NCBI GenBank assembly: GCA_951394405.1
Contig: OX596340.1
Span: forward strand, 2,604,001 to 2,668,000
Reading direction: 5' to 3'
Source of the DNA: Coprinellus micaceus
Taxonomy: Eukaryota; Basidiomycota; Agaricomycetes; Agaricales; Psathyrellaceae
DNA: 64,000 nucleotides
The number at the start of each line of letters is the position of its first letter. The stretch's first letter is position 1. Shown here in pieces: positions 32,866 through 59,600 of this stretch. The notes under the pieces were generated by a model. It saw only the letters and a program-made list of their open reading frames with translations. It did not search any database and had not been told where the DNA came from. Position numbers and translations under genes: made by a program.

Positions 32866-33357
32866 CTGTGGCGACGTTTTGAAGGAGGAAGCGCTCCTCA
32901 GCCTTCAACTTGGCCTCTTCGATGCGAGACTTTCTCACCCTATGACACCCGAATGACATGCACCCAGTGACTCACTTGAGTGTGCATATGGCCCTTACCT
33001 CATGAGCTGATTGTGCCCAATTGAGTAGAAAGGATGGCCTAAACACCCTGAGTCAACTGAGGGGGGCTCAATTGACTCATCCCAGGTATGCCAGAAGTGA
33101 GGGAAGGACGCGCCCGCCTGATCCCCAAAATAGTGGTGCGCCCTCGGCGCGGATCAAATGGCCGACAACCCCCACATCCGAATATAGGACCCGGCCTGGA
33201 ACTGGACTCCACACCGTCGGGCCAGATGAATTCGGGCCATCAGGACCTACGGAAAGACTGTAGCACTTAAGTTCAATACATATAGCTAATTGGTCGGACA
33301 TTGGAGCTACAATTCGGATACACTGAAAGATATTCAATACAACCACGGGTGAACAGA
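32866..33357. other. Left flank of the KDZ island with CTCAATTG motifs
   Basis: No gene. Contains CTCAATTGA at 33067-33075 and the inverted CAATTGAG at 33018-33025, plus related GAGTCAACTGAG, resembling motifs near 57.25-57.35 kb. Confidence 0.5.
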
Positions 33358-34100: not shown

Positions 34101-34414
34101 CAACTCAAAGGCGAACCATCAACCTTGGGAGGTCGTGCACGGAGGCAAATCGGGGAGCCTAGGACGTGACCTTTAAAATGTTCGCCGCGAGGTAATACCG
34201 GTGTCTCGGAAAAACCATAGATAGTCGCATGACCAACGGTGGTGGAAGAGCGGACGAGGCATGTGCTTCCTTCCAGGCTGAGATTATCGGGGCGATCTGA
34301 GATTTTCGACTCAAGCGGTAAGAGACGCAAGGGACATGTGAACTTCAAACCTTGTCCCATCTGAGCTTAAGTCGAATCTGCACCCCCAAAGCGAACCTTT
34401 GAACAGACCTCACA
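34101..34414. other. Divergent promoter region
   Basis: About 310 bp between divergent starts at 34100 (-) and 34415 (+). No TATA box or repeat stood out. Confidence 0.4.
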
Positions 34415-38312: not shown

Positions 38313-38508
38313 TCACTCTTTCATGAGAATATCGCTTATCGCACATTACGTTGTACCTCTTACTGTACGCCAAATCTCTGAAATGTAAGATGATTTCCGA
38401 CTGTCAGCACCATTACTAGTCCCGTCGTCATCGCATGGCGAGATACATATGCAAATTTATACATTTTAGGGACAAAGTATACATAGCTGAGTAGAAGCGT
38501 CTTTAGCC

Positions 38509-39195
38509 CTACAAACCCCCGGCGTAGCGCGAATTCTCCCTCTTACGACGAGTAGCGGATGTCAGTTGCCAGTACTTACCGCTGGTCGCATTCGAAAGGA
38601 TGTCCCGGTCTTCTGCGGACTGCTTGCGAGGGCTGCCCCTGTCACTCACATCTCCATCTTCCTCGTTGATATGATCAGCTTCGTCGAACGCGGCCGTGGA
38701 GTCTGCAGCAAGGGTTTCAGTCGCCATCATCCTCACCCTTTTCCCTTTTCCCTTTCCTTTTCCCTTTCCCTTTCCCTTTCCCATTTCCATTTCTCTCTCT
38801 GCAGACTCACGCGTCTCGTCATATAATCCTTCCTCTATGGCGGCCTTCTTTGACTTCTTGCCCTTTGCAGAGGATTTAGTAGGCGCCGTCTCCGGATCTG
38901 GAAGATTTGGCGTCACGTGCGAGGGCCCCACGTGCTCCAAGCCAATGTCCTCAGCATTTGGGCTTGCTTCCCTCCCCATCGATCGCACGACACCTCGAAT
39001 AGGCGTTCCCTCTTCGGATACCTCTGGGTCGCCTTTTCTACCCCCAGTCTTGGTCTTTTTCTTCTTGGATTTCTTGCCCTGGCGGTCCTTGGGTTCCGAA
39101 GGCAAGACTTCCGACTGGCCATCGTTCTCCCCACTGGCAACACCTTCTCCCTTGTCCCTCTCGTCGTCGCTCGGTGACTCCTTTAAATCTTTCTG
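38509..39195 (-). CDS. Lys-rich reading frame, possible 3' exon of the HMG-like gene
   Basis: An open minus-strand stretch coding a highly basic and acidic tail: DRQGKKSKKKKTKTGGRKG, a (GK)n run encoded by a CCCTTT repeat near 38740-38790, and an end at RYAGGL. No ATG precedes it. A GTAAAC donor near the stop of the upstream gene with an AG acceptor at about 39139 would splice it in phase as a sixth exon. Alternatively it is a separate or decayed gene. Composition (Lys/Glu-rich) matches the upstream gene's C-terminus. Confidence 0.45.
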   Translation of the reverse strand, partial: QKDLKESPSDDERDKGEGVASGENDGQSEVLPSEPKDRQGKKSKKKKTKTGGRKGDPEVSEEGTPIRGVVRSMGREASPNAEDIGLEHVGPSHVTPNLPDPETAPTKSSAKGKKSKKAAIEEGLYDETRESAEREMEMGKGKGKGKGKGKGKRVRMMATETLAADSTAAFDEADHINEEDGDVSDRGSPRKQSAEDRDILSNATSGKYWQLTSATRRKRENSRYAGGL

Positions 39196-39207
39196 CTCTA
39201 CCTCATC

Positions 39208-41836: not shown

Positions 41837-41891
41837 GTTTGAGAACAGAGAAGGAGATGACCTGGAAGAAAGATAAATGAGGAGCACTTGG

Positions 41892-41899
41892 GTATAAAT
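41892..41899 (+). promoter_or_regulatory. TATA box of the KDZ transposase gene
   Basis: TATAAATA, 86 bp upstream of the ATG at 41985, oriented toward the transposase in the short divergent intergenic region. Confidence 0.55.
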
Positions 41900-41984
41900 A
41901 GGGGCATGGAGCTCACCGTCCCACATCCCTGCCCTTCAAACACATTGACTCTCATCTTGGATCTCAATCTGCAATCGCCTCAAT

Positions 41985-44900
41985 ATGGTTAGCAAGATCG
42001 TGATGAGCCGCAAGAGGGCTCGCACAGCCGACTACATTGGCCGCTTCACCAATCGTGGCTACAAGGGTCGAGTCGTCAAGGAAGGGACTCGAAGCTCCCG
42101 CACCAAGACCGCCAACTATCCAGCACTTGAACCGCCTCCGAAGCCAGTGTATGGAAAGCGTCCCAGATTGGATAGATACTCCCCCGATAGAGACGTGATC
42201 CTCGCTCCCCCCTCACCTTCTTCATCCTGCTGCGATGGGCCGGCCGACAATACAGTCCACGAAACAACTTACGATTCACATGGCGGAGAACATATCCCAC
42301 AGAATGACTCCCCAAACCCCTTATTGGAGGCACCAGAGGGTAAAAGTCGCTCCGGAAGGGTTAGTCGTCTCGCACCCTAATTTACCTGAAGGGTATTCTT
42401 TTGACATGTCGACTTTAGAGAAGTCAAGATTATCTGGACGAATGGCAGAGGACAAGGGTGGCTTCATATCTCAATCGGGTCATACTAGGAGAGGGCCACG
42501 GAGGTGATGTATGCACAATGTGCACAATTGGGAACGCGGACTGGAAGTGCCTCGAGTGCATCGGGCAGCCCCGTCTGTGCACTAGTTGCTGCAGGGTTTC
42601 TCATCGAGCAAACCCTCTGCACCGAATCGAAAGGTGGACGGGCACCCACTGGAGGCCGGCGTGGCTGTGGCAAGTCGGCTCGGTCGTGTGCCTTGGGCAT
42701 GGTGGTGGGCCGTGCCCGAAGTATGAGGCCTCCCTCGAGCGGCTCGAGGAACGACTTGTATCAGTGAACGACGTGATCAACCTCCAAGAGGACAACAATT
42801 TTGGCGCCAAGCCCGAGGTGGTGGCCATTGGGTGTGGGGAACTTGTCGTGTACGTCCACACCAATGGTTTCCACTACATCCCTACCTATCCTTGCTGGTG
42901 CTCCGACGGCCTCGACGACGACTTGCAGTACCTGGACCGCCAACTCTATCCGGCTTCCTGGAAGAATGTTTCCACTGTCTTCACCTTTCAGGTTCTCAAC
43001 GTATTCCACCTCTTGAAGGTCCATTCGCACATGTCGACCGACCAGTATGCCAGCATTCTCGAAAGGGTCACGAACTTCGTGTTTCCGGCCAAATCGCCGG
43101 TATGTTCCTCAGTGTAGCTCTAGGGCGTAGCTCACCGTCAGCCACAGGACCGACGAAGGGAACTGGCACGGGCATGGCTCCAGTGGAATTACCTTACGAG
43201 CTTGAAACGTCACGGGTTCGGACACACCCAGCCTGGTGACCAACCGGGCAAGGCAGAACTTGGATTGTTTTGCCCCGCCTGCCCTATCCCCGGGGTTAAC
43301 CTTCCCGATGACTGGAAAGAGGATAAAAATACGTGAGTGTAATTCCAACGATATAAAATGCCATAGGGAGACTCACTAAGTGCTCACATCGCTGCAGGTG
43401 GCTTTATCGCCGGTATCTCGTGGCCGATGGGAATTTTGTGTTGGATCATCTGGCGAATCGAAGAGGGCGGGACGGGACCAACCTTACCAGTGGGGCCGCC
43501 TACATGACCGAGCCCACTCGCTATGCCAAGCATGTGGAAGCTGGCAGGGAGACTCAAGAGGTGAGTATTTCGCCCACCATCTATGCGCCGTAAAAAGACC
43601 CGCGTCTATTGCTTGGACCCGGCCGAGCAATGTTCGGCAAAGGCCGAGCGTCACGTGGACTCGCGTTTGGGCGCTTACACCCCGATAAAATTTCGTCTTG
43701 TTGTGTACCTCCTGCACGAATCCCAATTACTGTTAAAGTATTGGAGTGACCAGGAATCGAACCTGGGACCATCCGTTGACTAGACTGGACGCTCTACCAC
43801 TGAGCTACCACCCTATGGATAGACAGTGTGCAGATGTTGATACTATGGGGCCTTAAACATTCCCCATACACAGGCTCGTCACCATGTGGGATACAGTCAC
43901 ATATAGCACTGCACCAATATCAAGTCTAGGCTGTCGATTGACCACTTCCAACAATTACACTTATATTACTCGATGGCTCAACCCCGTTCGACTCACAGCC
44001 CCCCACCTGCAACAAGCTGCGCGCGGTATCCGAGAAGAACGTGTACAAGAAAGGTTACGACGCGACGGGAGTTGTCGCAATTGCATGCGCCCGCCATGGG
44101 TGTTTCGCGCCCGGATCCGTTGTAGACATGCAGAAGGGTGAGAGGTGAGTGGACTTTGCACCCGATAGACGAATTCGAGTCTCACCGGGGTACCTATTCA
44201 GACAATTGAACGTTGACTATGCCTTTTGCCAAGCGATGAAAAACACGAAGGCCTTCAAGACACCGGGCGTCGTACTCGCTTACGACGTGAATTGCCAGTA
44301 CTCCGTCAACTTTCGTAAGCGAGTTGACAACGCTCGGTATCTCAAGTGCGACCCAGACTTCCCTATTGACTTTGTCATTGGGTTGTTCCACGTTCATGGC
44401 CACAAGGACGACTGCCTGTCACGCTTTGCCCCGACGTTCTTCCCTGGAGCAGGCGTTACCAGCGGTGAAATACTGGAGTCTCTCTGGAGTACTATGAATG
44501 GTGCGGCGGGGATAACAAGGAACATGCTACTATCCAACAGATCCGAGCTACTGGACGCCTGCATGGCTGACAGCAATTGGCGGAAGCTTCAAATGTTGGG
44601 TTCGTAGCCTTCTCGTGTAACGGCCGGTTCAAATAAATCTCAATATGTCTTAGGACCCTATCTCGTCAAACAATTAGAGCTGGCCCGGTCCGAAGTCAAA
44701 GAGGCAGCCAACGACTTCAAGGGGATCAATGAAAATACGTCTATCCGGCTACGCAAGCGATGGAAGGCTCAAATGAAGGAGGCAAATGAAGCCCGTCGAT
44801 CGGATCCACATGCGATGGACGTGTACAATGTAGTCGTTCCCAAAGGCCAGTGGCCAACCTTCTTTCGTCTCATTTATCATTTTTTACTTACGGTGTGTCT

Positions 44901-46162
44901 AGTTGCTACCCAGGATATCGTCCAAGCCCAACTAATGGAGGAAGAGCGAAATGGGGTCGAGATCCGAGGGGTCGTCGAATGGCTTGCAGATGCCATAAGG
45001 ATCCAAGAGTCTCAGTTGAGTGCCTCAAGTCGGTTTATCCCTGAGATACACCCTCCCTAATTTGTTCGATTCTTCTCACTAGAATAAACCTGCGCTCTCT
45101 CATTGACGCTTCGAAAGATCCTTCATCCATGGTGACTATCGATCTGGGGAAGAAGTCGACAAATCTCGGCAAGGATATCACTGCCCTCAATAGGCAGGCT
45201 TCCGCCCTCTTCCCGGATGTAGACCTTGAACGTGAAGTGGGGTCGCAATGGGAGCACAATGGCGTGGAAATCTGCGTCTGCGAGGACGAGTGTTCTTGTG
45301 CCGAGCTTGCAGAACTTCCCTGGGGTCGCCGAGTCTCCGACATAAGCGCATACCCAGAACTCGTCCCCATCCCTCTCCCATCGAGCTTCAACGAACTCCC
45401 CGACGGATGGAAACCCTACGCAAAGAAAGAGGAAAAGTTGCGGATCGCACAGGCCGAGGAAGCACTCGAAGCATTGCGTGGAGAGATCGCCCATAAGTCC
45501 TTCCTGTATCGGGACAACCGGACCTGGGCGACTGGAAAGCGAGGCCGCACACGATCGTATGCCGAGATCAATGAAATCGAAAGGAAGATGCGGGGCCATA
45601 TCAAGCGATACAAGGCCGCGTTATGGGCGCTTCGGCGCCTTGGAAAAGCTCGGAAAATCACGCGCTTCAAAGACATCACGAGGGCCGATACCAAGGCGGT
45701 GACGGCCATCTTCGATCCAAACAAAAGGGGCGAGAGGAACGAGGGATTGTCCTGGATTTGGCATGTCGTGGTTGAAGGGAAGAAAGACAAGAAGGGCTAT
45801 GCTCGGGAACGTAAGCCACACCTCGTAATCGCCGATACGAAGACCCTGCTGACGGAGGCACTCGGACAGTTTATCGCGTGAACTGGATTAGGGCAAGATC
45901 TCGTCGCGATAGATGGGCAGAAGAGGTACGCTACGTCAAGGCCGAGATGCAGTGGTACATCCGGTATATGGACCATTTCGAGAAGCGTGCTAGGAAATGG
46001 GCGAAGCTTGACTTGGGCGATGGATATTCGTCGTATGCGAACAAGCAGGCGGATATGTGGAGACGTCTCGGGCAGGAAAGCAGGAACCTGTTTGGCGGTC
46101 ATACACCACTTCCAGATCTGGGCGAGGATAGTAAGGCGGCAGACGACGATCCAATCGAATAA
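41985..46162 (+). CDS. KDZ (Kyakuja-Dileera-Zisupton) family transposase with CxC2-type cysteine cluster
   Basis: DDE-type transposase of a DNA transposon class abundant in agaricomycetes. Nine exons join with correct phases: 41985-42359, 42419-43099, 43142-43332, 43398-43560, 43999-44144, 44202-44599, 44654-45032, 45083-45810, 45870-46162 (1,117 residues, no stops). N-terminus MVSKIVMSRKRAR; CxC2-type zinc region VCTMC...CLEC...LCTSCC followed by PLHRIERWTG; the linker FCPACPIPGVNLPDDW; first acidic motif LVADGNFVLDH; TCNKLRAVSEKN and CARHGCFAPGSVVDMQKGER; second Asp AYDVNCQY; FHVHGHKDDC; the Glu motif SGEILESLWSTMNG; and a C-terminal helical domain with SWIWHVV and RARSRRDRWAEEV. In-frame exon 7 may hide one further 84-nt intron (44828-44911). 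Confidence 0.92.
43592..43814 (-). repeat. tRNA-headed SINE-like unit inside a transposase intron (tentative)
   Basis: On the minus strand a tRNA-like head (43814-43742) is followed by about 145 bp of unrelated sequence and a T5 run at 43596-43592 that could end Pol III transcription. The whole lies in intron 4 of the KDZ gene. No target-site duplication was identified. Confidence 0.35.
43742..43814 (-). tRNA. tRNA-like sequence, probably a tRNA pseudogene (anticodon uncertain, AGT/Thr possible)
   Basis: Seventy-three bases fold as a tRNA with a D arm (GCTC/GAGC) containing a good A box (TAGCTCAGTGG), a perfect T arm CCAGG-TTCGATT-CCTGG with B box GGTTCGATTCC, and an acceptor stem AGGGTGG/TCACTCC with one A-C mismatch and two G-U pairs. 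The anticodon stem pairs only if one A is bulged (TCC-A-GT / ACGGA), giving loop CTAGTCA and anticodon AGT with an unusual pyrimidine at position 37. The extra base makes it 73 instead of the expected 72. It sits antisense in the 438-nt intron 4 of the transposase gene. Confidence 0.6.
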
Positions 46163-46235
46163 GTACGTAGACTTCGAGGTACAAGAATTAACTGTTGCGT
46201 CCGATCATCACACTTTCCCTCCATCGATAACTTCC

Positions 46236-47065
46236 ATGGCGTCGACCCTCCTGACGTCTCATCTCCTCCAAGCGACCAGGTCACTGGATACTCTGACCTG
46301 GCAAACGGTTGTGAACCTCCTGGGGAGTAGATGCCGGGCCATTGCGACCGCTTTCGCAGTCCAGTCAATGTCCATGGACCAGGACGCGCGAATCGCATTC
46401 GCCGCTGTGGCCAAATTCGAGGTGGTGAGCTACGTAGCATACTGGGTACGGATTGCATGACTGAGCCAAGATACCATCATCCTTCCTAGACGAGTGCGAA
46501 CATACTCCTGGGTCTCGGGGCCTGTCTGCACCCCACAGGCATCCATCCTCCCGCCGCTCTCAAGATCCTGAGCAAGATTATGTTATACGAAGAGTTGGAA
46601 GACTTCAAGGCTCTTCAGCTCTTGCTAGAGGACACGCGCGATCCAGACGACGCGCTCCTGTACCGGTATGAAGGGAACTGGTGGTCGCCATTCGATCATC
46701 GTTTGACCCTCGAGGATCGCAACCTACGTCCCGAGGATCTACTCATGTACTGGGAACTACAAAAGAAAACCTTACCTCACGCCCGACAGCCACTCCACCC
46801 AACCATTATATTGAATACCGGGCTCATGGCCGACACAGAGCTCAAGCTCGCCTGGAACATCAGCAAGGACGCTCTAGATATGTTGGACGAGGAAATAGCT
46901 GACTCTCTTGTCCACTTAGGGGATATCACGATGGACATTACAAGGCAGCATGAATTACTGGCTGATATGGAGGCGTTACTTGAGAACCGGTTAGAGGAGG
47001 AAGGTTCCAAGGAAATCATGGACGTGATAGGGGCACGCAAAGGGACCGATGAGTCAAACGCGTGA
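46236..47065 (+). CDS. Unknown KDZ-island protein, first of a tandem paralogous pair
   Basis: Two exons, 46236-46424 and 46490-47065, joined in phase 0; 254 residues. It starts MASTLLTSHLLQATRSLD only 73 bp after the transposase stop, same strand. Features: LTWQTVVNLLGSRCRA, an Ala-rich helix, the intron right after KFEV, GACLHPTGIHPP, a Trp-containing middle (EGNWWSPFDH), and C-terminal heptads (LDMLDEEIADSLVHLGDI) predicted to coil. It aligns along its length with the next gene, including intron position. I know no family for it. Location and orientation suggest a function linked to the transposon. Confidence 0.68.
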
Positions 47066-47183
47066 CGGGAGCTCACTGGAAGCGCTGCTTGTTACAAATG
47101 TTCCGTACATAAACGAAGACCTTAACAAATTCAACACATCATCTCACTCTAACTCCCCTTCGCAACTCGGCCTTCGTGCACGA

Positions 47184-47855
47184 ATGTCTCTTGATGGGTC
47201 TCGGGAGACATGGAAATCCCTCGTCACCTATCTCGGGTCTCGGCGAGAGGCCTTTCTACGGCACCTGTACGATAATCGGAAGACAATTCCGTTCGATAGA
47301 CGATATGTCGTCCTCTTCAAGGCAGAACTGGTGAGTGGAGAGCGCGTCTTGGAACCACATGCTGAAGGAATTCAGGCGGCATCGGTCGCCTGTTACGGGT
47401 TTCAAGCGTGCAAGTTAGACCCAGAATCCCAAATCATTGACGTTGCATTGAATGCCATTCTCCACCGGCTTCCTGCCTACCTCGGATCGGATGAGGACTT
47501 GTGGGATGCAATTAAATTTGGCGTTTTAAGATATCGGGTAGATGGAGACTACCCTAGGGGACCTCTCCCCAATGTCGTGAAATGGTGGGAGGCCCTCGAT
47601 TCGCCTCCTACCTTGGATTCGGTCCTACGAGACTGGCGGGAGGACTTGCTCAACATCCAGTTGAACGTTGAGACGTTGGAGCCCAACACCATGGACGGGA
47701 TAAACAAGTGGGGGCTGCAATCCACTCACCTCTTGAACAAGGAGATTATTCATACGGAAACGGAAATTGCGAAGACGGTGGATAGAATTGAGCGTGTTCT
47801 ATGTCTGGTGAAGGCGTTTGAAGATCTGGGAGCTATTCAGTATCCTACCGCATAG
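47184..47855 (+). CDS. Unknown KDZ-island protein, second of the tandem paralogous pair
   Basis: Two exons, 47184-47330 and 47376-47855, phase 0. The 45-nt intron is itself open, so an unspliced frame (from 47049) also reads through, but splicing aligns it with the upstream paralogue: ETWKSLVTYLGSRREAF matches LTWQTVVNLLGSRCRA, FKAEL precedes the intron as KFEV does, and AASVACYGFQACKLDPESQ follows. 208 residues with C-terminal heptads (LLNKEIIHTETEIAKTVDRI). Start at MSLDGSRETW chosen by that alignment. Function unknown. It converges on the first TET/JBP gene, 32 bp between stops. Confidence 0.66.
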   Translation: MSLDGSRETWKSLVTYLGSRREAFLRHLYDNRKTIPFDRRYVVLFKAELVSGERVLEPHAEGIQAASVACYGFQACKLDPESQIIDVALNAILHRLPAYLGSDEDLWDAIKFGVLRYRVDGDYPRGPLPNVVKWWEALDSPPTLDSVLRDWREDLLNIQLNVETLEPNTMDGINKWGLQSTHLLNKEIIHTETEIAKTVDRIERVLCLVKAFEDLGAIQYPTA

Positions 47856-47887
47856 CTATCTATCTATCCATCGCCGGTGTTCACGTC

Positions 47888-49309
47888 CTACTCCCAAATG
47901 TCACCTTTGTATGCCACATCGACCGCCTTCAAACCGAACATCTCCCAAAACAAATGCTTTGATGGGGGTGCGTGCTCCTTGTACTCATCCCCAAGGGCCC
48001 CGTATCCAACATTGGGTCGGATGAAACTTGCGATGCAAATTCGCTCTCCGTCGGTATGGCTGGCTCCATGCTCGAACACACCTCCTGGTAAAGCAAACGC
48101 TGTCCCTGAATTGTACAGAAAACGACTGCGCAAAAGAGGGACTTCGAATCGGCCTTGCTTGTATCGGCCGAACACTGACAGTATGTCCATGAGCTTCTTC
48201 CCTCCCTTCAAATCGCGGTGCAACGGTGTTTCCCGATTTGCGATGAGGGCAAACCCAGAGAATGGTGTCGTCCAATGGTGGAATGTTTCCATCATGAGGG
48301 GTCGGTCCTTGCAGGGTATCCTTCCCAAGGCTATCGCATCGAGGACTTGTAGTTGAGTGTTGAAGAGGGTAGGGTGAACAAGGGCCAGCAGGGCACCAAT
48401 GATGGCGTTGCTCTCAAACTGGCTCTCGAGAAAAGCGATGCCACCAGCTTCCGGTGCTCTTAGGTTAACGGATGGGGCTGGGGCTGAGTTCCTGTGCTAA
48501 TATTAAATGTGTTAGGCTTGTGCTAACCAGAAGGCTTTGTCTGGCTTACGTCGAATGCTTGATTGTACCAGCAAATGCTGATGTTTCCGTGGCCTGGTCT
48601 AATGCTGCACCTCGAAGGGTCGGTGAATGTCGACCGATCATAGCGCCAGCTCGTACCCGAAGATGAACCCTCCAGCAAGGTCTCATCTAGCTGTGAAAGT
48701 TGACGAGTAGCTTCAAACACACTCGCCTGAAAGTTTGGGTCAGCGTTTTTGCAAAGGTGAACCCACGTAATAACGCTTACGCGCATGCTCGCACTAAACG
48801 CGGCCGGGATGTACCATGCAATGACTCGGCCGGACTTGTCGAGGAACACGGTAGGCTTGACTACGAGAGGCAGATCGCCTAACTCCCCCTTTCTATTGAC
48901 CCCAGGTCCCCCAAACTTCTTTCGCAGTGTCTGGTCCTTGTTCCCCCCTTTCTTCGTAGCGACATCCAATACTTCATCGAATGTGTAGGGCATATATACT
49001 GGGCAACGCTTAGGACTCATCGTCATTTTTTGACAAGGAGCACTGACCAGGGTTGTTCCATGCGGCCAGAAACTGGTCGACTAGCCGATGGACGTCACAT
49101 GCGCCGCCCTTTGACATGGCCCTGGGAACCTCTGCACGTTCCAGCATCCCAGTCTTTTCCTTGACGAGGTCTTGGGCAAAGATCCCATAGAGGCGACAAA
49201 TTTGGAGGCCTCTAGGTATCGTTTCATCCATGGTAGGAGATGTGGGGGGTAAGTTTACGCGAACACCGGAATGTGCGCCCTTTCCTTTCCCTTCGCCCGG
49301 GTCGCTCAT
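47888..49309 (-). CDS. TET/JBP-type 2-oxoglutarate/Fe(II) dioxygenase, copy 1 (HxD intact; exon 1/2 junction unresolved)
   Basis: TET/JBP enzymes oxidise 5-methylpyrimidines in DNA (5mC to 5hmC and beyond) in the nucleus. Exons 47888-48496, 48550-48726 and 48781-49008 join in frame; exon 1 (49048-49309, MSDPGEGKGKG to AAWNNP) cannot be joined by a GT-AG pair in phase. An alternative start MTMSPKR at 49026 keeps the rest in frame. Active site: NRETPLHRDLKGG gives the HxD metal pair, VFEHGASHTDGERICI the distal His and the 2-oxoglutarate Arg, and PFSGFALIANRE the preceding strand. RYKQGRFEVPLL and FALPGGVFEHG are shared with copy 2. Neighbouring a KDZ transposase, as reported for fungal TET/JBP genes. 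Confidence 0.82.
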
Positions 49310-49644
49310 AGGTCGCCCTTCCGGTGCTCGGCCTTGATCACGATGGTTGTTCACATGACGATCATTACTACGTCCCTTTGCCCATATGTCAACTTGGTAT
49401 CGAGTTGTTGGGATCCATGCTCTCGTCACTGGTGGACGGCCGGAGACAATAAGCGCCTTCGTTTTTTTTGGCGCTCAGTTAAGTCGGATCAATCTGGGAA
49501 GCGCCCACTACAGCACCCGCCTGTGCCTTCCTAAATAAGGATCCTTTCTACTCCCCAGGGAGTCAGAGCGAAATCAGCATTCTCCCACCCTCGCCCCGCG
49601 TCACACCCTTTCCTTCACCAGACCATTTCGTCGAATCGATTGGG
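49310..49644. other. Divergent promoter region, TET/JBP copy 1 and coiled-coil gene
   Basis: About 335 bp between starts at 49309 (-) and 49645 (+). Contains TTTTTTTGGCGCTC near 49470 and GAAGCGCCC near 49500, and a TAAATAAGG element near 49530. Confidence 0.45.
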
Positions 49645-50136
49645 ATGTCGAATATCGCCCGCCAGAACCTCACATCCCTTGCCGAAGCTCTAGACGACCA
49701 GATCAACCTAAGCATCAACCTAGCGTTGGTCAACACGTTGATAAAGGCCAGCATCGAACCACGCACAGGCAACCAAAGCGGTGAAGAGATCCCCTGCCAG
49801 GACAGCGAAGCCGCGAACGATCCTTCCACCGGAGAACTGACCGGTATCGAGGGCGCGAGCATCGACGGCATCACCCTACTCCGCGTTTTAGAGGTCGTGG
49901 GGGAGATATTGAAAGAACAAGGCTCGGAGATCGCTGAGGTGAAGGCCGAATCCCGCACTCTTCGACAGGCCGCCAAGTCGTTTGGCGAGACGCTCGCCGA
50001 ACTCCACGAGAACCTTCGAATCCTCAAGGAGGATTACGGGAAGCTGCTAAAGTGCCTCAAAAAGAGTGAGGATCTTTTGTCGAAGCAGCAGCGTCTCCTC
50101 ACGGCGTGTACTTGTCGCCCAAAGTCTGTCAACTAA
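49645..50136 (+). CDS. Small coiled-coil protein of the KDZ island (a)
   Basis: Single exon, 163 residues, MSNIARQNLTSLAEALDDQ. A short N-terminal helix, an acidic middle, then a long heptad helix (GEILKEQGSEIAEVKAESRT, LAELHENLRILKEDYGKLLK) ending in LTACTCRPKSVN with two Cys. No family is recognised; it shares the size and coiled-coil plan of the genes at 52.3-56.6 kb but its sequence alignment to them is weak. Divergently transcribed from TET/JBP copy 1. Confidence 0.6.
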   Translation: MSNIARQNLTSLAEALDDQINLSINLALVNTLIKASIEPRTGNQSGEEIPCQDSEAANDPSTGELTGIEGASIDGITLLRVLEVVGEILKEQGSEIAEVKAESRTLRQAAKSFGETLAELHENLRILKEDYGKLLKCLKKSEDLLSKQQRLLTACTCRPKSVN

Positions 50137-50656
50137 TTCGAAGTATGTCGTTATCAATTTGCTCGCTCCTCTTGCCTTGGCCTTGGAACTGACCTTCCCT
50201 CCTTCGATAGGTCGTGTTGGAAGTAGCTAGAGATTTGATCAATGTATTATCTTGACTTGATCGTCCAATGGATTTGGAATCGTGAATGTCGATTCCTGAG
50301 TAGGTTGAATGCGAAGGTCGTCCGAGTGAGAGCCGCCGACGAGACGTCGTCAGAATTGGACTTCAATCTATCAAGATGCTTGGTAGTAATCCTATATTTC
50401 TTGCGAACGGCCGTTAGAATGTCGGATACTCATTGACAGCCTTGAGAATGGCCGACAGTGAGAAGGCGTCACAAACATGACAAGAACCCACATCTGAGCC
50501 TCTTTATTGGAACTCACAATTTATCCGCAGTCTCATGTCATTTACGTTGACGCTATGTTCGCATGGCATACACGAAGACTTGCTAATATATTGGATGATG
50601 TGCACTTGCGATGTCTACAACGATGAGAGGTATGGGAGATTAAGTTACATCGCTCG
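50137..50656. other. Intergenic, coiled-coil gene a to TET/JBP copy 2
   Basis: About 520 bp between convergent stops. A short + strand frame at 50242-50436 is not supported. Nothing recognised. Confidence 0.4.
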
Positions 50657-51971
50657 CTAACCCCGCTGACCCACCCAATCGGCGAACCCCTTGGAGTAGC
50701 CTACACCAAAGCCAGATGCCGTCAGGTCTTCCACTGAAGGAGGTCCCGGCTGCCTCTGTCCCTGCATGTGCTCTCGAAGGCTCGACGGCCGGACATTGAA
50801 GACTAGCCCGATCCTCTCGCCATCTGTCCGACTCGCTCCATGTTGGAGAAGCCCTCCCGGAAGCAGCAGACCGGTCCCCGGGTTGTATGCGAACCTCGCA
50901 CCTAAGGCAGGAACTTCGAACCGGCCTTGTCGATACGGTCCCAAGGCGACGAAGAGGTCGTAGAGAGCGTGCCTGTGGGTGGACCGGTGTCGATGTGACG
51001 GAGTTTCCCTGTTGCAAATGATATTGCAACCAGAGAATGGGGTCGCCCAGACATCAAAGAACTGCTCAAGGAGCGTTGTATGGGGACTTCCTTGCCTTCG
51101 GCCGAACATACTCGCCAGGAATTCGACTTGGTACTCGAACAGGTCAGGATGCGTAATGGCCAGAATGGCCCCCACCAATGCCATGGACTCCATCTGCGAT
51201 TCGAGGTACTCCATAGCCCCGCCTTGGGGATCCCGCAAGGAGCTGGATATGGTGCATGCTGAGCCCTGCTGCTGTGAATATCGGATATATGGTTAGCCAT
51301 TGTATGGGGGTCGCACGATGAATGATGACGCTGGCTCACCTGGATTTCGATTGTTGCCTCGCCGGGCCAAACTGTGCAAACCTCAGGGTTCGCATAGGTG
51401 CTCACTTCAAATTTCCAAGGCTTGGATGTACCTCCTCCGCTGATTATCGACTTGGGCCTCGTCGAAAGTTCCCTCAGAGCCCGGAACATTTGCTCCTTGG
51501 GTAAGACCGTCAGATGTTGGATCATGGGGATGACCTCGCCAGGGCTGAACTTACTCTTCGTCGCTTTGTCAAAAGGTCAGGGATGTACCATCCGATGACC
51601 AGACCCCGTTTATCCACAAAGACAATGGGTTTCGTCACCAGACCAAGGCCGTTAGCCACACCGCCCTTGGGCGGTGCTCGATTCAAATCCCACTCGGTGT
51701 CAGCAAGGAGTACCTCGACCGACAGATCTACGACGACTACTCTTCGGTTAAGACTCACAACCAATGGGATGCATAGAGAAAGCTTACCTCGATTAGCCCA
51801 TGCTTCGAAAACCCTGCCAACCAGCTTTTCCAAATCGACGAGAGCTCCGGGCGAGATTGCTTCGTGAATAGCCATAGGCGCTTGTCCTTTCCTTTCCCTG
51901 ACTAATTGTTGCGCATGCCGCCCGTAGATCCGACAGAGACGTAGACCGACAGGCTCGTCGTTGCTGCTCAT
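50657..51971 (-). CDS. TET/JBP-type dioxygenase homologue, copy 2 (HxH in place of HxD)
   Basis: Four exons, all phases consistent: 51788-51971, 51555-51739, 51340-51495, 50657-51271; 379 residues from MSSNDEPVGLRLCRIYG. Clear paralogue of copy 1: VFVDKRGLVIGWYIPD, YLESQMESMALVGAI, FDVWATPFSG, GPYRQGRFEVPALG, LLLPGGLLQHGASRTDGERI. The distal His (HGAS) and 2-oxoglutarate Arg (GER) are kept, but the metal motif is NRETPSHRHRS, so the aspartate ligand is His (codon CAC; GAC to CAC is one base). The enzyme is probably inactive or altered; a three-His site could still bind metal. The frame is clean, arguing against simple decay. Confidence 0.84.
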
Positions 51972-52287
51972 ACCGGATGTGAGCCTGTAACAAAAAAAAT
52001 GCGTCGAGTAACCTTGGTGGGATTGATCAAAGCGTGCTCCTGGGCGCGGACTTTGAATACTTCAATTGGCGCTTAATTAATTTTTCTCGTCGTATTGGGA
52101 CGCTCAAAGTTTTATCACCGAATCCTTGTCATCATATATCGGACCAACTGAGCACAGAAGCCCTCTCCTCCATCTACTGTATGTGTATCTGCCGAGTTTC
52201 CCCTATCCCAGCGTAACTAGGAGGGTACGTCAGTTCGATGACATCTAAGGCCAGTGTAAACGAGCATGACTCACCGTTCCTCCGCCC
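51972..52287. other. Intergenic upstream of TET/JBP copy 2
   Basis: About 315 bp. Carries the TET/JBP copy 2 promoter; TTGGCGCTTAATTAATTTTT at about 52062-52081 is the only striking element. No gene. Confidence 0.45.
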
Positions 52288-52941
52288 TCAAATCCCCAAT
52301 CCGTCAAATGTGCCTCGCCACTCGGACGTCTCACCATCGCTGTCCTCCCACTCCGAGTACTCCGCATCGCTAGATGGAACTTTATCAGCCTTCATAAGTT
52401 CTTGTCGCTTGGTGGCTCGGGCCTGCAACCATTGGGTGAGTTCCTTGCGTTCCTTCGCCTGCGTGACCGCGAGTTTATCCCGAGTCGCGCTGAACATTGC
52501 AGTCACGGCCGCGACCCATTGTGCTGGGTCACTGTCGATGGCCTCGGTAGTGGATATCTCCTCGAACATCTTGACAAGTTCGTCCACCGTCCCACTCAGG
52601 CCCCCAAACTTCTGGACCATAAGGTTGTACTGTTCCTCGTGGTCCTTGAGCGCGTCCTGGGCGACTTCGGCCGTGCGCTTCAAACGCATATTGTGGTTAA
52701 CAAGGCCAGTCTTTACTAGCTCAAGTCTGGCCACGGTTAACTGGAGGGCTCGTATCGTTGCAGACTGAGATTGTATAATGTTCAGGTGCTCGCACCCAGG
52801 ACCCAAGTCTTCAGGACCTTTGTTCGTGGGCGAATGACTGCTGTCGGACGATAGGGAGGATAAGCTGCTCTCGGACGCGGGGCTGGTAGGCATAGGGATG
52901 TCGCTGGCTGCTTCGCTGGAAGGCCTTGGTATGGATGGCAC
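52288..52941 (-). CDS. Small coiled-coil protein of the KDZ island (b)
   Basis: Single exon, 217 residues, MPSIPRPSSEAASDIPMPT. A Ser/Pro-rich N-terminus, then GCEHLNIIQSQSATIRALQ opening a long coiled coil, a DSDPAQWVAAVTAMF segment, ERKELTQWLQARATKRQEL, and an acidic Trp-containing tail. The pattern C-x2-L, heptads, D-D/P-x-W block and Q-W-L-x-x-R recurs in genes d and e, so these are diverged paralogues. No known family. Nuclear or chromatin role is only a guess from context. Confidence 0.65.
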   Translation of the reverse strand: MPSIPRPSSEAASDIPMPTSPASESSLSSLSSDSSHSPTNKGPEDLGPGCEHLNIIQSQSATIRALQLTVARLELVKTGLVNHNMRLKRTAEVAQDALKDHEEQYNLMVQKFGGLSGTVDELVKMFEEISTTEAIDSDPAQWVAAVTAMFSATRDKLAVTQAKERKELTQWLQARATKRQELMKADKVPSSDAEYSEWEDSDGETSEWRGTFDGLGI

Positions 52942-52998
52942 CTTCGACGGCGCCTTACGATTTTATGGAGTTCGGATGGCTCTCGTTTGGGCGATGGA

Positions 52999-53051
52999 TA
53001 CACCGGACCGTAAATGAAAGTCTGAGTCATGTTCGTTTACGGTCCGGTGTA
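52999..53051. repeat. Perfect 16-bp inverted repeat
   Basis: TACACCGGACCGTAAA at 52999-53014 and its exact reverse complement at 53036-53051, 21-nt loop. A related TACACCGGACGGACC lies near 55527. Confidence 0.85.
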
Positions 53052-53088
53052 CCCCCCTTACTGAGAACAACCAACGAGACCTATGCAT

Positions 53089-53234
53089 CGTTCCCCGCTC
53101 TTTCAAATACCAACCAGTGGCCAACCCTCGCCTCGCCGTGTGCCCTTTAGTCGTTTCGCAACGTTCCCCGCTCTTTCAAATACCAACCAGTGGCCAACCC
53201 TCGCCTCGCCGTGTGCCCTTTAGTCGTTTCGCAA
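53089..53234. repeat. 73-bp perfect direct tandem duplication
   Basis: Bases 53089-53161 are repeated without change at 53162-53234. No coding role. Identical copies imply a recent event. Confidence 0.93.
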
Positions 53235-53806
53235 TTTAAGCGCCCAAGGGATCATCCACCTCAGGATCTACCCCGAGCGCCCTCCTTACACGGATTTTCC
53301 TGGTGGACAATGCTCCTCAGCAGGTGCTAGGTATTTTACGGCGATACTCGAATCCTCCTCACGAGGTTGTGCTAAGGAAGGATGTGCCCTTCGGCCATCG
53401 TTCCGGTGTGACATCTTGACCTCGATCGATACTCGGGTTCAGAGCGGCTGATGCACTCACCCCCACGTCTTTTGGAACTGGGGTGGGACCTCTCCTCTTG
53501 TCTTATCGCCCTCTCCCAAATGCTTCCTGCCCGATGAGATCTCCGCCTCATGCCCGGGCCCCTCGATTGTATGTCGTTGACCTTATGGAAACAGGGTATC
53601 GCCTCGCCCGAAATATTGGGCGCTCTGAGATCGATGTCACGATATCTCTTTGCGAACATTTCATTCAATTTAAAATATCCAGCCAGCTACATGTGGTGTG
53701 TACACCTTCCATCTCCAAAGATATCCTAATTACTAACCGCCTGGTGTCAGCAACCACCCATCTCAGGAAGGAGATAGTCCGAAGAACATACCTTGCGAGG
53801 TCAGTT

Positions 53807-54373
53807 CTATGCCCCATCCACCGACAACTCCCCTGGGTTTGCAGGAGTCGCTTGCGAGAGCCCTTGCGGGTAGGCTTCCCCCATGCCCGCCCAGGTATCT
53901 CGGGCCAGCTCTTCGTCCGAAATCCACCTTTCGAGACGTGCTTGGACTCGTTGTAGGTGACTTGCAAGCTCTGTAGCATGAGCATCGCAGCACCGAGGCT
54001 GCTCGATATCGTCGTCGGCGGCCGGCGTGAGGACGAGCGCCATCTTCTGGAATTGTCCACTGAAGAACCCGGTGTGCCCATCGAACCGTTGTTGGTAAGC
54101 CATCCTCTCCTCTACGAACCGCCCAATTTCGTCCTCCAAGAAGTTGTATCGGCATTTATATTCCTCCTTCCTCCGATTTATCTTGACCTTGTCCCTCACG
54201 AGTTCGTTGCACAACTGCTCGAGAGTCGTGATGCGGTCGGCCTGGATTGGCACCAGCCATCGATTGGCACAGTGGCATGGCGTGGATGGGGTGCTGCTTC
54301 CCACCTCTTCCTCTGACGACGTTTCACCTTGTTCGCCCGTGGGGCTGGTGGATGTGTGGCTATCGGATGACAT
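53807..54373 (-). CDS. Small coiled-coil protein of the KDZ island (c)
   Basis: Single exon, 188 residues, MSSDSHTSTSPTGEQGETSS. A Ser/Glu-rich N-terminus, a Cys/His cluster (STPCHCANRWL), then charged heptads (VKINRRKEEYKCRYNFLEDEIGRF), a short hydrophobic block with AADDDIEQPRCCDAH, and a second helix ending RWISDEELARDTW. It shares the general plan of b, d and e but alignment is weak. A splice variant skipping the last segment is possible near 53793. No family recognised. Confidence 0.55.
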   Translation of the reverse strand: MSSDSHTSTSPTGEQGETSSEEEVGSSTPSTPCHCANRWLVPIQADRITTLEQLCNELVRDKVKINRRKEEYKCRYNFLEDEIGRFVEERMAYQQRFDGHTGFFSGQFQKMALVLTPAADDDIEQPRCCDAHATELASHLQRVQARLERWISDEELARDTWAGMGEAYPQGLSQATPANPGELSVDGA

Positions 54374-54784
54374 GTCTGTCTTCTTGGGGGTTGCGAGCTT
54401 GATTTGATTGGAGGGGTATGCGTTCGTTACTTATACCATGAGCCGGTTTCGGTATTCCACTATCCGACCCGGACGTGAATGAATTGAATGGCTTCTTCTC
54501 ACCGCATTCATTCGTAATTCCATTCTCTGGTTATGTTCGGCCATTGGGAATATTTTGTTCTCGGCCGATGGTCATGCGTTTCGCCATCCATTTGTCTCCA
54601 TCTTTCCATATACGTCGACTTTTGTAAATAATAGTGACAGCGGGCGGAGGAACCTACCTCCTCTAAGGTCCTCTAAGGCAATGTTTGAAGGGTACCGTGA
54701 CGTACGAATGAGTTTCTACGGACATTCATCAACGATATGCCATGAATCGACCAGGCGGCTGACGTACACAGATCTTGGAAGGAT
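54374..54784. other. Intergenic, coiled-coil genes c and d
   Basis: About 410 bp. Promoter side of gene c. A + strand frame crossing it is antisense noise. Confidence 0.4.
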
Positions 54785-55348
54785 CTATTGGCTCGCTTCG
54801 TCGCTCGATTCCTTTAGCTCTGGAATCTCGTCATCGCTCTCCTCCCCAATGAACGATGTCTTGTCAATGCCACCAAAAAGAATATTCTGAAGTCGCTGAG
54901 GCCTCTGCGAGAGCCACTGGTGATAGCTGGAAAGCTCCTCTTTCTCGAGCTTGTCAAATTTCTCTCCTGCCTCCCAAAGCTCCCCACTGAACTTCGCTGC
55001 CCAACTCTCGAGGTCGCCATCGTCATGGCTGAGCCGTGCCGCCATGCCCCGAAGGGTATATGCGACGTTTCCGAGGGAGTTGCGGAGTGCGTCAATTCTG
55101 GCCGCGACCATGTCGTGTTGTTCGTCTTCATGTCGAATCGCATACTCGACTGAGCGCTTGTACTGCTGACTCTCCATGCGGTGGTCTAGATTTTCCATTT
55201 CTAGATGGGAGATCATGCGCCGGAGTTTGGCGATTTGTTTGGCCTGGGAAAGCTGAGCGCGAAGGTGAGGGCATTCCCCTTGCTCAGGGTGTGCCATCGA
55301 GGTCTGGTTCGGCCGCGCGGAGGCTGGGGGGGTGTCGCCACAGAACAT
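54785..55348 (-). CDS. Small coiled-coil protein of the KDZ island (d)
   Basis: Single exon, 187 residues from 55348; an in-frame Met at 55297 (MAHPEQGE) is an alternative start. Motifs: ECPHLRAQLSQAKQIAKLR at the start of the coil, a long heptad region, HDDGDLESWAAKF, EELSSYHQWLSQRPQRL, and an acidic tail. These match genes b (GCEHLNIIQ, DSDPAQWVAAV, ERKELTQWLQAR) and e (DCPNLDTIA, HDPRAVALVKE, SQEFLEFIKQR) in order and spacing. Divergent from gene e. Confidence 0.65.
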   Translation of the reverse strand: MFCGDTPPASARPNQTSMAHPEQGECPHLRAQLSQAKQIAKLRRMISHLEMENLDHRMESQQYKRSVEYAIRHEDEQHDMVAARIDALRNSLGNVAYTLRGMAARLSHDDGDLESWAAKFSGELWEAGEKFDKLEKEELSSYHQWLSQRPQRLQNILFGGIDKTSFIGEESDDEIPELKESSDEASQ

Positions 55349-56062
55349 TGAACAGGGCGGCGAATTTTCTGAGGTACAATAGCGATGTCTTGCTTTTCAA
55401 ATGCGCGCTTCGTGTGATGGGGTTCTGCTGATTGGTTTCGACCCCGTGTACTTCGCGCATGGTTCTGCGGAGCGTGTTCGGAGCTTGGTGATGGTGTCGC
55501 TATTTAGGCGCCCATCGGCCGGCCTCAGTTACACCGGACGGACCAGATGACGTGTTCCTAGATCCAGTACCATGAGTACCCTTTCGGGATTAGGGTATTT
55601 GCTTCCGTGTCCCACTCCCTCGGTGCGATGTTCCGGACGTTGGTTCTCGATTTCCATTTCTGTTTACCTCTTGCCTCCAACTGTCCACGCGGTCGAACCC
55701 CACCCCCAGGTTTCGAAGCTCACTTTCCAGAGGCTTCTGCGGATTTCTGAGGGATCAGAACTTTTGAGAACGAAAAAGTCCTAGACGCCTGTGACGCGAC
55801 GGTCGGCCTTTCCTTCAATATAGATAACAGTCCGCGGTTCGGGGGTGTCGCCACCTAAGCGCCCGAATCTGAGATCTCACTCCATCCGTGGACTTGGTAA
55901 GCTATATTAGGTAGATGTAGTTCACTATCCCCGATTCATTTCCGGATTTGGAAGGGCCGTTCCGTCACGTCACCTCGCTCATTCGACATTCCTTTATTTC
56001 TTTTCCTGTGGGTCACATTCCTATGAGTTTCCACCTTTCGCATCACCCTCCTTGGCGGCAGA
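55349..56062. other. Divergent promoter region of coiled-coil genes d and e
   Basis: About 710 bp. Contains TATTTAGGCGCCC near 55502 and CCTAAGCGCCC near 55854, one on each gene's side, and TTACACCGGACGGACC near 55526. No gene. Confidence 0.45.
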
Positions 56063-56641
56063 ATGGCTGAGCAAGCCCATATCCTCCAGCAACTCGCTGC
56101 CTTTGGCATCCCGTCCAGCAGGGTCCACTTTATCAACCCGGAACTCGCTTCCAGCGAGCTCCCGCCACCCACTGCGGATCAGGGTTGCAGGTCGGATTGC
56201 CCCAATCTCGACACGATTGCAGAGCAAGCGAGGGAGATCGCCCAGCTACAAATCAAGGCCCTTCGCTCCGAGGTTCGGGACCTTCCCCTCACCACCCTGG
56301 TTCAGGATCTCGAAGGCGCCGTGCGCCACGCACAGTCCATCATCTCCACATACTCAGAGGAAATGGATCGCTCGAAGAAGGGTACCGAAGAATTTGTGAC
56401 CATCATCCGCGGGATCTGCAAATCATTCTCGGACTTCGTCGGCGTCGTTGCCCATGACCCTCGGGCGGTCGCACTTGTAAAGGAGATAGAGAAGGGGCAG
56501 AGGATGCTGAATGTCTGGGCCGCCAACGAGTCTCAAGAATTCCTTGAGTTCATCAAGCAGAGGACCGCCCCGGAGGAGGACCTGAACGCCTTTATAGATT
56601 GGATGGACGAGCGAAAGGCCAAGGAGGGACAGGCCAACTAG
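56063..56641 (+). CDS. Small coiled-coil protein of the KDZ island (e)
   Basis: Single exon, 192 residues, MAEQAHILQQLAAFGIPSS. SDCPNLDTIAEQAREIAQLQ opens a coiled coil, then EEFVTIIRGICKSFSDFVG, AHDPRAVALVKEIEK, SQEFLEFIKQRTAPEEDL and a Trp near the end. Aligned by motif order with genes b and d. Unknown family. It is the last island gene before the right CTCAATTGA cluster. Confidence 0.65.
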   Translation: MAEQAHILQQLAAFGIPSSRVHFINPELASSELPPPTADQGCRSDCPNLDTIAEQAREIAQLQIKALRSEVRDLPLTTLVQDLEGAVRHAQSIISTYSEEMDRSKKGTEEFVTIIRGICKSFSDFVGVVAHDPRAVALVKEIEKGQRMLNVWAANESQEFLEFIKQRTAPEEDLNAFIDWMDERKAKEGQAN

Positions 56642-59600
56642 AAATACCCATCGGTGTGCGTCGGGCCGTGTTCTTGTTGCGTTTGAGAAGTGGTTTTCTT
56701 GTATCGTGTTCCGTCCGTACCACGAGACTGCATTTGTATATTTCCGCCCCAATCTCTGCCAATGTAACCGCAGAGCTGTTCTCCGCTTTCGATTCTTGTT
56801 TGTTTCCTTGTATCCGCTGTCCCTTTTCCATTCTCACACCAGCGATATCTGCGTTACTTCCCTCAGCGAAACGGAGTGCACATAAAGTATGGCCGAGGCT
56901 ACATAGATAAGAAACATCTTTCTGTCTACGTTTAGCATTCTTTTCTTGTCTCAGGTGTCTCTCCGAATCGCCAGGACTCAGAGCACACTCCCGACGCCAT
57001 CACTGAGTCGCTTTAGATCGGCAGTGTGCTTCCGTCAGGACCGGTTTGGGTTTTTATATATTTCTCAAGATGTCCGACACCGTTTCTCTCCAGTACCTCC
57101 GTTACCTTTGTTACTGTGGCAGCTTAGGGAGTATGTCATGGGCCGACGAGTGAGGGATGGCTTGGACCCTGGCCGGATCAGAAATCGCAACCGAAATAGG
57201 AAGGCGATTCACCGTCATCGGTGCCGAGGCCGATTAGGGGGTCACTCAATTGACCCATGGACAGTGATCCATGACTGCCTAAGTTGACTCACTCTGGCAG
57301 GGTCCTCAATTGACCCTAAGGGATATGTGTCATTGGTGGGTGGTCAATTGAGCAACATTGGGGCATGTACAAGGGAGCATAATGCCACTCAAGTCAGCCA
57401 TTGTCAATTTGGCTTAGCCGCCCCATGCCCTGACTTTCTGGCTATCCGAATCATAACGAGTGTACCACTCATTACTTCTCGGGCGGTCGCAAATTGACGT
57501 CCCCGCCCCACGGTCTTGCATTGTATGATATAATCTGTGTGGCTTGAGTATTATCCTCTCTGGTGCGGGATCACAATTTACATTGCCGGTTCACAATGTC
57601 TCCCTCCTTGTACCTGTACATATGTTAGCGGAGTCGTTCCTAATGACTGAGAAGAGCTCACGTTGGGGATCCTGATACTGAGGGGAGCGGCATTCCCATC
57701 CTCGAATTGAAGTATCTGTCGCTATTGAGCTGGTACCAGTCGATGATTTCAAACAAGGCTGGATTCGCCTTTTATTACATACCGGCCTTCGGGACTAGCC
57801 CCTTTGCCGAGCTGCTTGAGAACTCATCGTCGGAACGGTCAAGACGGATGAGGGTTGGGATGAGGAATCAAACATGACGGATATCACTATTTTCCCATTC
57901 CCGTGGGTTCACGACGCTTCCCATGTCTCGTGGTAAACGACCCCATTCATGACATAGCTTTAGTCATGCGCGGCCCACTGGTACTCAGATCTGGCGATGG
58001 CTTGATGTTCCAAGGCCAACACACCTCCGAGGCGGGGACCCGTCTGAAGCAGAGTGCCAAAGAGTCTCAAAGAGTGCCAAGGAGTCTCGATGAGGCCATG
58101 TGAGGTGTGATCGTGGGAGCATGTTGCTACTGCTTGTCTTTCCTGGTTCGTCCCTCTCAGCTCACCCCTCGTTCCCAGTATAGTGGCCTTTTCTGCCCGT
58201 TTCACTCTGAACCGCAATTGCCACCCGTGGCCCGGGTCTCTCATCCCCAAGACTATTCTGCCAGTGCCTGACTACAGGCCCGCAACTATCAACCTCAGAT
58301 CTCGCCTCTGGAGACTTGCCTCTTCAGTACGGTGACTGTCATTTCCTCTTCTTTCCGCTCCTGGACTCATTCAAGTACAAACCCCCTGCAATCTCTTTTC
58401 AGTTCGGCCCAATGACGCAACGATGTGTCGAATCCGGCACACTTCATCCCCATGATCCCGCTGGTCCAATTCGCTGGGTCCAGATCATGCGACCGGTTCA
58501 CCAATAAGAACAATGGCTCGGCGACCGTCGCTCCCGCCCCATTGGCTCTGTCCAGAATCAGCGCGTCGAGATTAAGCGAACCAGCATACCGATCGTGCGA
58601 TCTCTGTGTCCCTAGCTGCGACATGAAGCGTCGAGTTGACCAAGGACGGCTTCGACTTTACGGTCTCGACTGACCACACGCGGTTTGACATGGTCCCCTA
58701 TCACGTCTACATCAAGTTCGCGAACGGTATCATTGATATCCTTGCCTCCGCGGGCGCCGACGTCTATCCAGATCGTCGCTCTCTGATGGCGTCATACGTC
58801 TCGCCTCTATCCTCTCCTCTAGGTTCGCCCTCGCCCAATGAAACCCCACCTCCACGCGCGCCTACCGTCACCGATCGCACTGTAAATGGGCGGATGCATC
58901 CCACATTCCAGAACCCCGGGGTACGCGACAGTGGTGCAGGCAAATTCGGGCAAAATTGGACAAATCCACTCTTAGTAGTGTTGAATCGCCGTGCATTAGT
59001 CTGTTACCCCTATCCGTTGTTCCAACTCGACACGGAAGCACCCCGCCGGCTCTTGACGGCGCAAAACACGACCTTGGCACCGCCATCACGGTCCCCTCCC
59101 ACCCTTGTTGCGTTCAATTATTGGTTTACTTCGCTTGCTCGTTGTCTGCATTGACGGTTTAGGTGTGCATCTATGTTCATTCGCGCTCATTCGCTTCAGC
59201 TAAAGCCCTTCGCTACCATACACGGATCCATGCATTGCCCAACGACATACATACTTAAGACTTAAGACCGCCTATCTGCCGTACTACATCCCATTTTCTG
59301 CTGCCCGTCCAACACCTCCGCTCGATCAAATGCCTCCACCTCTGAGCAGGTTCACGAACTCCATGTTGAGTTGGAAAGTATGAGGCCGCATGAGGGGGAC
59401 GATGTGAGACTAGGTGAGTGGTGAAGAGGCGCGTCTACCAACTAAGACGTGAGCACGTGCTCGTTCAGTGCGGTTCAAAATTGATTTGGCTTGTCTATCA
59501 TCTAGCGTTAACTTAATGCGATACTCGCAAACGGTAGCGACAGCGGGAGTGCCGAGCGAGTCAGTGGACAAGCTAGCGCCGGACAACGATCACGAGACGG

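Follow-up and report, generated by a model that had tools for sequence, protein, structure and literature searches.

What might be the role of a TET/JBP gene in which the metal-binding aspartate has been replaced by histidine? This question is raised by a gene lying in a stretch of 64,000 nucleotides from Coprinellus micaceus (assembly GCA_951394405.1, contig OX596340.1, positions 2,604,001 to 2,668,000), hereafter the window. Two TET/JBP homologues are found there, the HRH gene (copy 2), which carries the replacement, and the HRD gene (copy 1); CcTet from Coprinopsis cinerea was taken as reference. An earlier note, made on the HRH gene from the sequence alone, had seen in it selection for an altered function. 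That observation proved to be real and stronger than the note had stated, its reading having been made without the multicopy state of the gene, its status as transposon cargo, its HxD partner in every copy and the further changes in its pocket; selection is now settled. On balance, the HRH gene probably encodes a conserved pseudo-TET, which has lost the ordinary Fe(II)/2-oxoglutarate (2OG) chemistry of 5-methylcytosine (5mC) oxidases and is retained as a partner of the adjacent HRD enzyme. The observed basis consists of the HxH motif, its conservation in three lineages, carriage by a transposon, strong purifying selection and the presence of an HxD partner beside every copy found.

The HRH gene displays NRETPSHRH where the HRD gene displays NRETPLHRD. 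Its first metal-binding histidine (His264) is present, the aspartate codon is replaced by CAC (Table 1), and the distal histidine and the 2OG arginine are retained, all in agreement with the earlier note; the four exons joined in phase were likewise recovered as one frame, with introns of 60, 59 and 68 base pairs (bp). Exon 4 matched the Pfam profile Tet_JBP (PF12851) with an E-value of 2.3e-16 (59.9 bits, curated cut-off 34.9). Its predicted fold was TET-like and matched that of CcTet, which was the best match in fold. The motif opens the histidine-rich stretch HRHRSTHRH, all four histidines of which are common to the three HRH lineages. Model residues 101-105, adjoining the HRH motif, displayed a predicted local distance difference test score (pLDDT) under 50, and a three-histidine site is compatible with the sequence. 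The His-x-Asp/Glu...His metal triad is absent, the carboxylate position being occupied by histidine in all five copies.

At least 31 Tet_JBP matches were found in the whole genome, corresponding to at least 30 loci since two matches were fragments of one broken gene; genome-wide TET/JBP counts are lower bounds throughout. The 30 loci found were divided into 24 with HxD, five with HRH and one with RRT (the upstream gene of locus L023, on C1). HRH loci were encountered in the window, on C13, on C4 and twice on C2, and they represent three distinct lineages (window/C13, C4 and the C2 pair). Coding sequences of the window and C13 copies differed by a single synonymous change and those of both C2 copies were identical. 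The codon was CAC in five out of five copies, and a sequencing error was rejected as the source of HRH because the motif was present in three lineages. A search of the genome with the window DNA returned 15 weaker matches, not including the near-identical copies, and was not used for counts; several of these matches were transposase sequences at distances of at least a few kb from TET loci.

Selection was estimated from the ratio of nonsynonymous to synonymous divergence (dN/dS, Nei-Gojobori) between the distinct lineages, which are transposon copies and not orthologues. For window/C4, window/C2 and C4/C2, respectively, the HRH gene displayed values of 0.169, 0.140 and 0.161 and the HRD gene values of 0.131, 0.140 and 0.155, with whole-gene bootstrap upper limits of at most 0.26. 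The catalytic exon of the HRH gene alone gave 0.165, 0.115 and 0.126, and its N-terminal part 0.171, 0.168 and 0.197. HRH introns were more divergent than exons in two of the three comparisons (0.36 and 0.37 versus 0.17 and 0.19). Insertions and deletions in HRH exons, relative to the window copy, measured 3 or 6 bp, except in the C4 copy, where a 1-bp deletion close to the 3' end shortens the protein to 359 residues; this deletion aside, frame and splice sites were intact in all five copies. The HRH gene is under purifying selection about as strict as that on its HRD neighbour, and it is not a dying gene because its ratios (0.14-0.17) are similar to those of the HRD gene (0.13-0.16). Decay, of which the earlier note considered a dN/dS near 1 to be the sign, was rejected on these values; selection, which the note had proposed, was confirmed. 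With its lost catalytic residue and continued purifying selection, the HRH gene agrees with a pseudoenzyme at the sequence level.

Each of the five HRH genes was followed downstream, in the same orientation, by an HRD gene, the distance between match starts being 2,775-2,803 bases, or 3,532 in C13. In the latter copy, the HRD gene was interrupted by an insert of 743 bases (L015:2871-3613) with the 8-base repeat GAGAATGG on both sides, which presumably would suit a small hAT-like element. A second TET pair was found at L023:3490-6270 (C1:4584989-4587769), where an HWD gene lies 1.5 kb downstream of the RRT gene. This pair sits in a related element and, as in the window, similarity to the transposase was found about 3.2 kb beyond it. 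Its upstream gene displayed RRT for HxD and GEC for GER, hence lacking the histidine, the aspartate and the 2OG arginine, and maintained a long open frame. Every non-HxD gene (6/6) thus had an HxD gene 1.5-3.5 kb downstream of it. HxD was kept by all 18 genes that lacked a second match in their vicinity, including two that were visibly damaged, L025 (internal stop) and L024 (NRET changed to NGKT). Since aspartate was lost in six of six upstream genes and in none of these 18, its loss tracks the upstream place in a pair and not general decay. In the SICWYN stretch, the conserved WY was missing from both the HRH genes and the L023 upstream gene, and both were altered at the positions of Arg205, Asp328, Gly331 and Leu339. 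They were not joined in the tree, though the approximately unbiased test did not decide against a shared origin (p 0.467).

The HxH clade that the earlier note had suggested looking for was recovered: HRH genes formed one group with 100 % bootstrap in two trees, built from the copies of this genome and one or two database proteins. The motif columns themselves were included in both trees. The first tree omitted the partial HRD gene of C13 and the L025 pieces, and the branch of the window HRD gene was inflated there (0.5), probably by the interrupted C13 copy; the 18-row tree contained the spliced sequence. The latter omitted near-identical copies, L003, L009, L013, L018 and L024 among others, and included L025 up to its gap. 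In this tree, the HRH stem was long, with 1.33 changes per column versus 0.5 for HRD. As far as such branch lengths tell, the HRH genes would have undergone much change first and later a constraint about as strong as that on HRD genes. Database searches yielded two homologues with the HRH query, seven with the HRD query and one with an HRH/HRD profile (scored on the 7,996 candidates with the most words in common), or seven distinct proteins overall, the named ones coming from Coprinellus and Ephemerocybe. Six displayed HRD and one (P0007) HRN. No HxH was found among these seven proteins, which says little on its absence elsewhere as few fungi seem covered. In P0007, asparagine at the metal carboxylate represents another natural change at that position.

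Residues of CcTet were mapped onto the HRH protein by alignment, their roles being taken from PMC11040006. Equivalents of Trp204, Arg321, Thr323, His326, Ser330, Asp337, Tyr361, His376, Arg385 and Arg393 were retained in all three HRH lineages. In all three, Arg205 was replaced by Lys, Asp328 by His, Leu339 by Phe and Phe391 by Asn; Gly331 was replaced by Thr with one inserted residue nearby, a placement that depends on the alignment. At the same positions in HxD genes, Phe391 was Asn in L005 and Arg205 was His in the downstream gene of L023. In CcTet, 5mC oxidation is lost when His326, Asp328 or His376 is changed to alanine, the Arg205Ala and Arg385Ala mutants are inactive, and the 5mC base is sandwiched by Phe391 and Arg205 (PMC11040006). 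The alignment is suggestive of a protein that retains most of the metal/2OG side of the pocket and alters the base side. Out of 63 columns near-invariant among 14 HxD rows, HRH genes kept 38, consisting of five of the six metal/2OG columns and 33 of the 57 others, and this excess of metal/2OG columns was not significant (Fisher p 0.39). The L023 upstream gene kept 43 of the 63 columns and three of the six.

Under the pseudo-TET reading, ordinary catalysis would be lost in the HRH protein, as suggested by the CcTet alanine mutants at equivalent positions. The HRD enzyme would be active and the HRH protein would act with it as heteromer, activator or DNA-targeting subunit, a partnership to which gene order, co-conservation and similar selection point. 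DNMT3L works with DNMT3A, and, like DNMT3L beside DNMT3A or Mta9 with Mta1, the two proteins might keep the DNA of the element from methylation silencing. Several points weigh against this reading. Contact between the HRH and HRD proteins is putative, and the C13 copy has an interrupted HRD gene while its HRH gene is intact. No more than two element families underlie the pairing rule, and their upstream genes might or might not have a common origin. The histidine and lysine found at positions 328 and 205 differ from the alanines of the tested mutants. Retention of His326, His376, Arg321, Thr323, Tyr361, Arg385 and Asp337 would be needless for a pure scaffold, though the excess of retained metal/2OG columns was not significant (p 0.39). 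AspH lacks a carboxylate ligand and is nevertheless active as a 2OG oxygenase (PMC13168262). Finally, intron divergence between the window and C4 copies (0.12) was hardly above exon divergence (0.11).

The earlier note had also proposed a reader of modified DNA, that is, a catalytically dead protein that flips and holds 5mC or oxidised bases in order to shield or mark the DNA of the element. This proposal was weakened because both residues forming the 5mC sandwich in CcTet, Arg205 (Lys) and Phe391 (Asn), were altered in all three lineages; the Phe391 change alone is weak evidence since it was also encountered in the HxD gene L005. We consider a reader doubtful.

A working enzyme with a three-histidine or extended histidine-cluster metal site, preferring another metal or catalysing another reaction, perhaps on a different base, is unlikely. 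Both metal histidines and the equivalents of Arg385, Thr323, Tyr361, Arg321 and Asp337 are retained beside an altered base pocket, as such an enzyme could have them. Four histidines in nine residues were reached in just 85 of 20,000 protein shuffles and are retained in all three lineages, but one of the four is ancestral and the count therefore overstates the surprise. Precedents are AspH, a carboxylate-free 2OG oxygenase (PMC13168262), and EgtB, a non-haem iron enzyme with a three-histidine facial triad (PMC13426267), whereas no HxH TET/JBP protein was present among the literature matches listed. The altered base-sandwich residues and the non-significant retention of cofactor residues argue in the same direction. 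Its extended form, in which a TET-fold metalloenzyme with a three-histidine or histidine-cluster site would catalyse a new DNA chemistry and act second, with HRD, in a pathway of two enzymes, is less probable still.

Neutral decay of a dying paralogue or of a hitch-hiking passenger, with HxH as its by-product, has very little to recommend it. The long HRH stem (1.33 versus 0.5 changes per column), the deletion shortening the C4 copy and the common occurrence of predicted-inactive TET copies in fungi (PMC8889193) would be consistent with decay, but every comparison between distinct lineages gave a dN/dS of 0.14-0.17 (upper limit at most 0.26), and frame and splice sites are intact in all copies apart from that deletion. 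Least probable is a normal, catalytically active TET that obtains the missing ligand from a neighbouring residue or manages without it. The carboxylate is not needed in AspH (PMC13168262) and is glutamate in PE-type TETs (PMC12730594), but the HRHRSTHxH stretch is devoid of Asp and Glu and the Arg205 and Gly331 equivalents are also altered.

The HRH and HRD genes are carried by a DNA transposon, the features of which are listed in Table 1.

Table 1. Coordinates of the two TET/JBP genes and of the surrounding element in the window
Feature	Position	Strand	Remarks
HRH gene (copy 2)	51971-50657	minus	four exons, single open frame, 375 residues
HRH gene exon 1	51788..51971	minus	splice model; also open in the other four copies
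HRH gene exon 2	51555..51727	minus	splice model
HRH gene exon 3	51340..51495	minus	includes Trp146/Lys147, aligned to CcTet Trp204/Arg205
HRH gene exon 4	50657..51271	minus	catalytic double-stranded beta-helix core; stop codon ends at 50657
His266 codon CAC	50989-50987	minus	replaces metal-binding Asp (CcTet Asp328)
Distal metal His315	50840..50842	minus	retained (CcTet His376)
2OG Arg324	50813..50815	minus	retained (CcTet Arg385)
HRHRSTHRH	50969..50995	minus	four His among nine residues; longer than in HxD genes by one inserted residue
HRD gene (copy 1)	47888..49231	minus	exons 49231-49048, 48998-48781, 48726-48550, 48496-47888; 395 residues; canonical HRD
Kyakuja-type (KDZ) DNA transposon	32936..57432	+	24,497 bp; holds both TET/JBP genes
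Left target-site duplication ACTTTCT	32929..32935		7 bp
Right target-site duplication ACTTTCT	57433..57439		7 bp, perfect match to left
KDZ transposase, part	44149..44604	+	PF18758, E 4.8e-25
CxC2 cysteine cluster, KDZ-transposase associated	42419..43114	+	PF18803, E 2.7e-18

Its termini are 5'-CACCCTATG...CCATGCCCTG-3' and hence of the CA..TG type. At the right end, the C4 and C2a copies cease to be homologous to the window; homology to C13 runs one base further (57433) through a chance match. The left end was set against C4 alone, the sole copy read up to that point, which is flanked by GCCTGGG on both sides. No clear terminal inverted repeat was found in an ungapped comparison (18 of 40 end positions agreed, with a longest run of three bases). 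Kyakuja elements are marked by CA..TG ends, 7-bp duplications and a lack of inverted repeats (Kojima 2025, PMC12730594). The present element is of Kyakuja type according to its KDZ domain, its ends, its target site duplication and the lack of clear inverted repeats, the distinction from Dileera and Zisupton being putative.

In alignments of the window and C13 copies, four pieces were 99.8-99.9 % identical and one other 98.1 %, and since the right flanks of the two copies differ, the family appears to have moved recently. The two C2 copies (C2:4.54 Mb and 5.14 Mb; L019/L020, L028/L030 and L029/L031) were 100 % identical over 9,842, 9,841 and 1,327 bases and each was located near a run of 200 N; one is therefore perhaps an assembly duplicate, or the duplication was very recent. 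Beside the C2a element and next to a run of N, L028:5274-6629 contained a partial second copy of the right end of the element (window 56081-57432).

Other features were observed inside the element. The 221 bases between the CxC2 and transposase parts (43731-43951) were unmatched in C4 or C2, and about 2.9 kb (L032:5643-8517) occupied the same site in the C13 copy; both are possible insertions near the transposase. Four short frames (49483-50136, 52288-52962, 53807-54430 and 54785-55396) were charged and coiled-coil-like, one of them lying in the interval between the TET genes, on the other strand. Their DNA was conserved among element copies, and no Pfam cut-off was reached in the three of the four that were scanned. 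Two tandem copies of a unit of about 73 bases starting GTTCCCCGCTCTTTCAAATACC were noticed by eye at 53090-53235, and a reading frame with repeated SSSTSSDE units at 41186-41935.

TET genes carried by fungal transposons are believed to aid the escape of these elements from methylation. If the pseudo-TET reading is true, a conserved dead or altered TET and a live one on a single element would form a two-protein arrangement not met for TETs among the matches listed. These literature matches contained neither an HxH TET nor a tandem pair of canonical and degenerate TETs as cargo, although an earlier mention is possible, and the sections of PMC12730594 on Kyakuja and TET types make no mention of HRH/HRD cargo in tandem. 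Judged by its motif, HRH may be a new variant among TET/JBP proteins. Of the 47 TETs in C. cinerea, 32 are predicted to be active, as are 47 of the 74 in L. bicolor (PMC8889193); among the copies counted as predicted inactive in fungi, at least the HRH genes are under selection and not junk.

In comparison with known systems, the HRH gene resembles the AG-type TET/JBP of Kyakuja by the CA..TG ends and the 7-bp duplication of its element, its Tet_JBP domain and its proximity to CcTet, and differs from this HxD type (PMC12730594) by HxH and a one-residue insertion; of the AG-type residue set, Asp337 is retained while the Asp328 and Gly331 equivalents are not. CcTet (PDB 7vpn, 7w5p and 8jkk) was the only solved relative found by sequence (two distinct sequences, E about 1e-20). 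The HRH protein shares with it two metal histidines and the main 2OG positions, in contrast to its Asp328, Arg205, Phe391 and Gly331 equivalents, which are replaced. HxE is a recognised TET variant, the PE type (PMC12730594), and likewise a natural change at the metal carboxylate; however, glutamate still makes a 2-His-1-carboxylate triad, which the histidine of HRH does not. The carboxylate ligand is also absent from AspH, but there water takes its place in an active enzyme that acts on protein (PMC13168262). The closest parallels in arrangement are DNMT3L and Mta9 (PMC13297926), inactive paralogues beside an active enzyme in a DNA-modification setting, and prozyme (PMC5201418), an inactive paralogue partner from another pathway. 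Their folds and chemistry differ from those of the HRH protein, and the partnership established in them would find in the HRH/HRD pair a putative counterpart.
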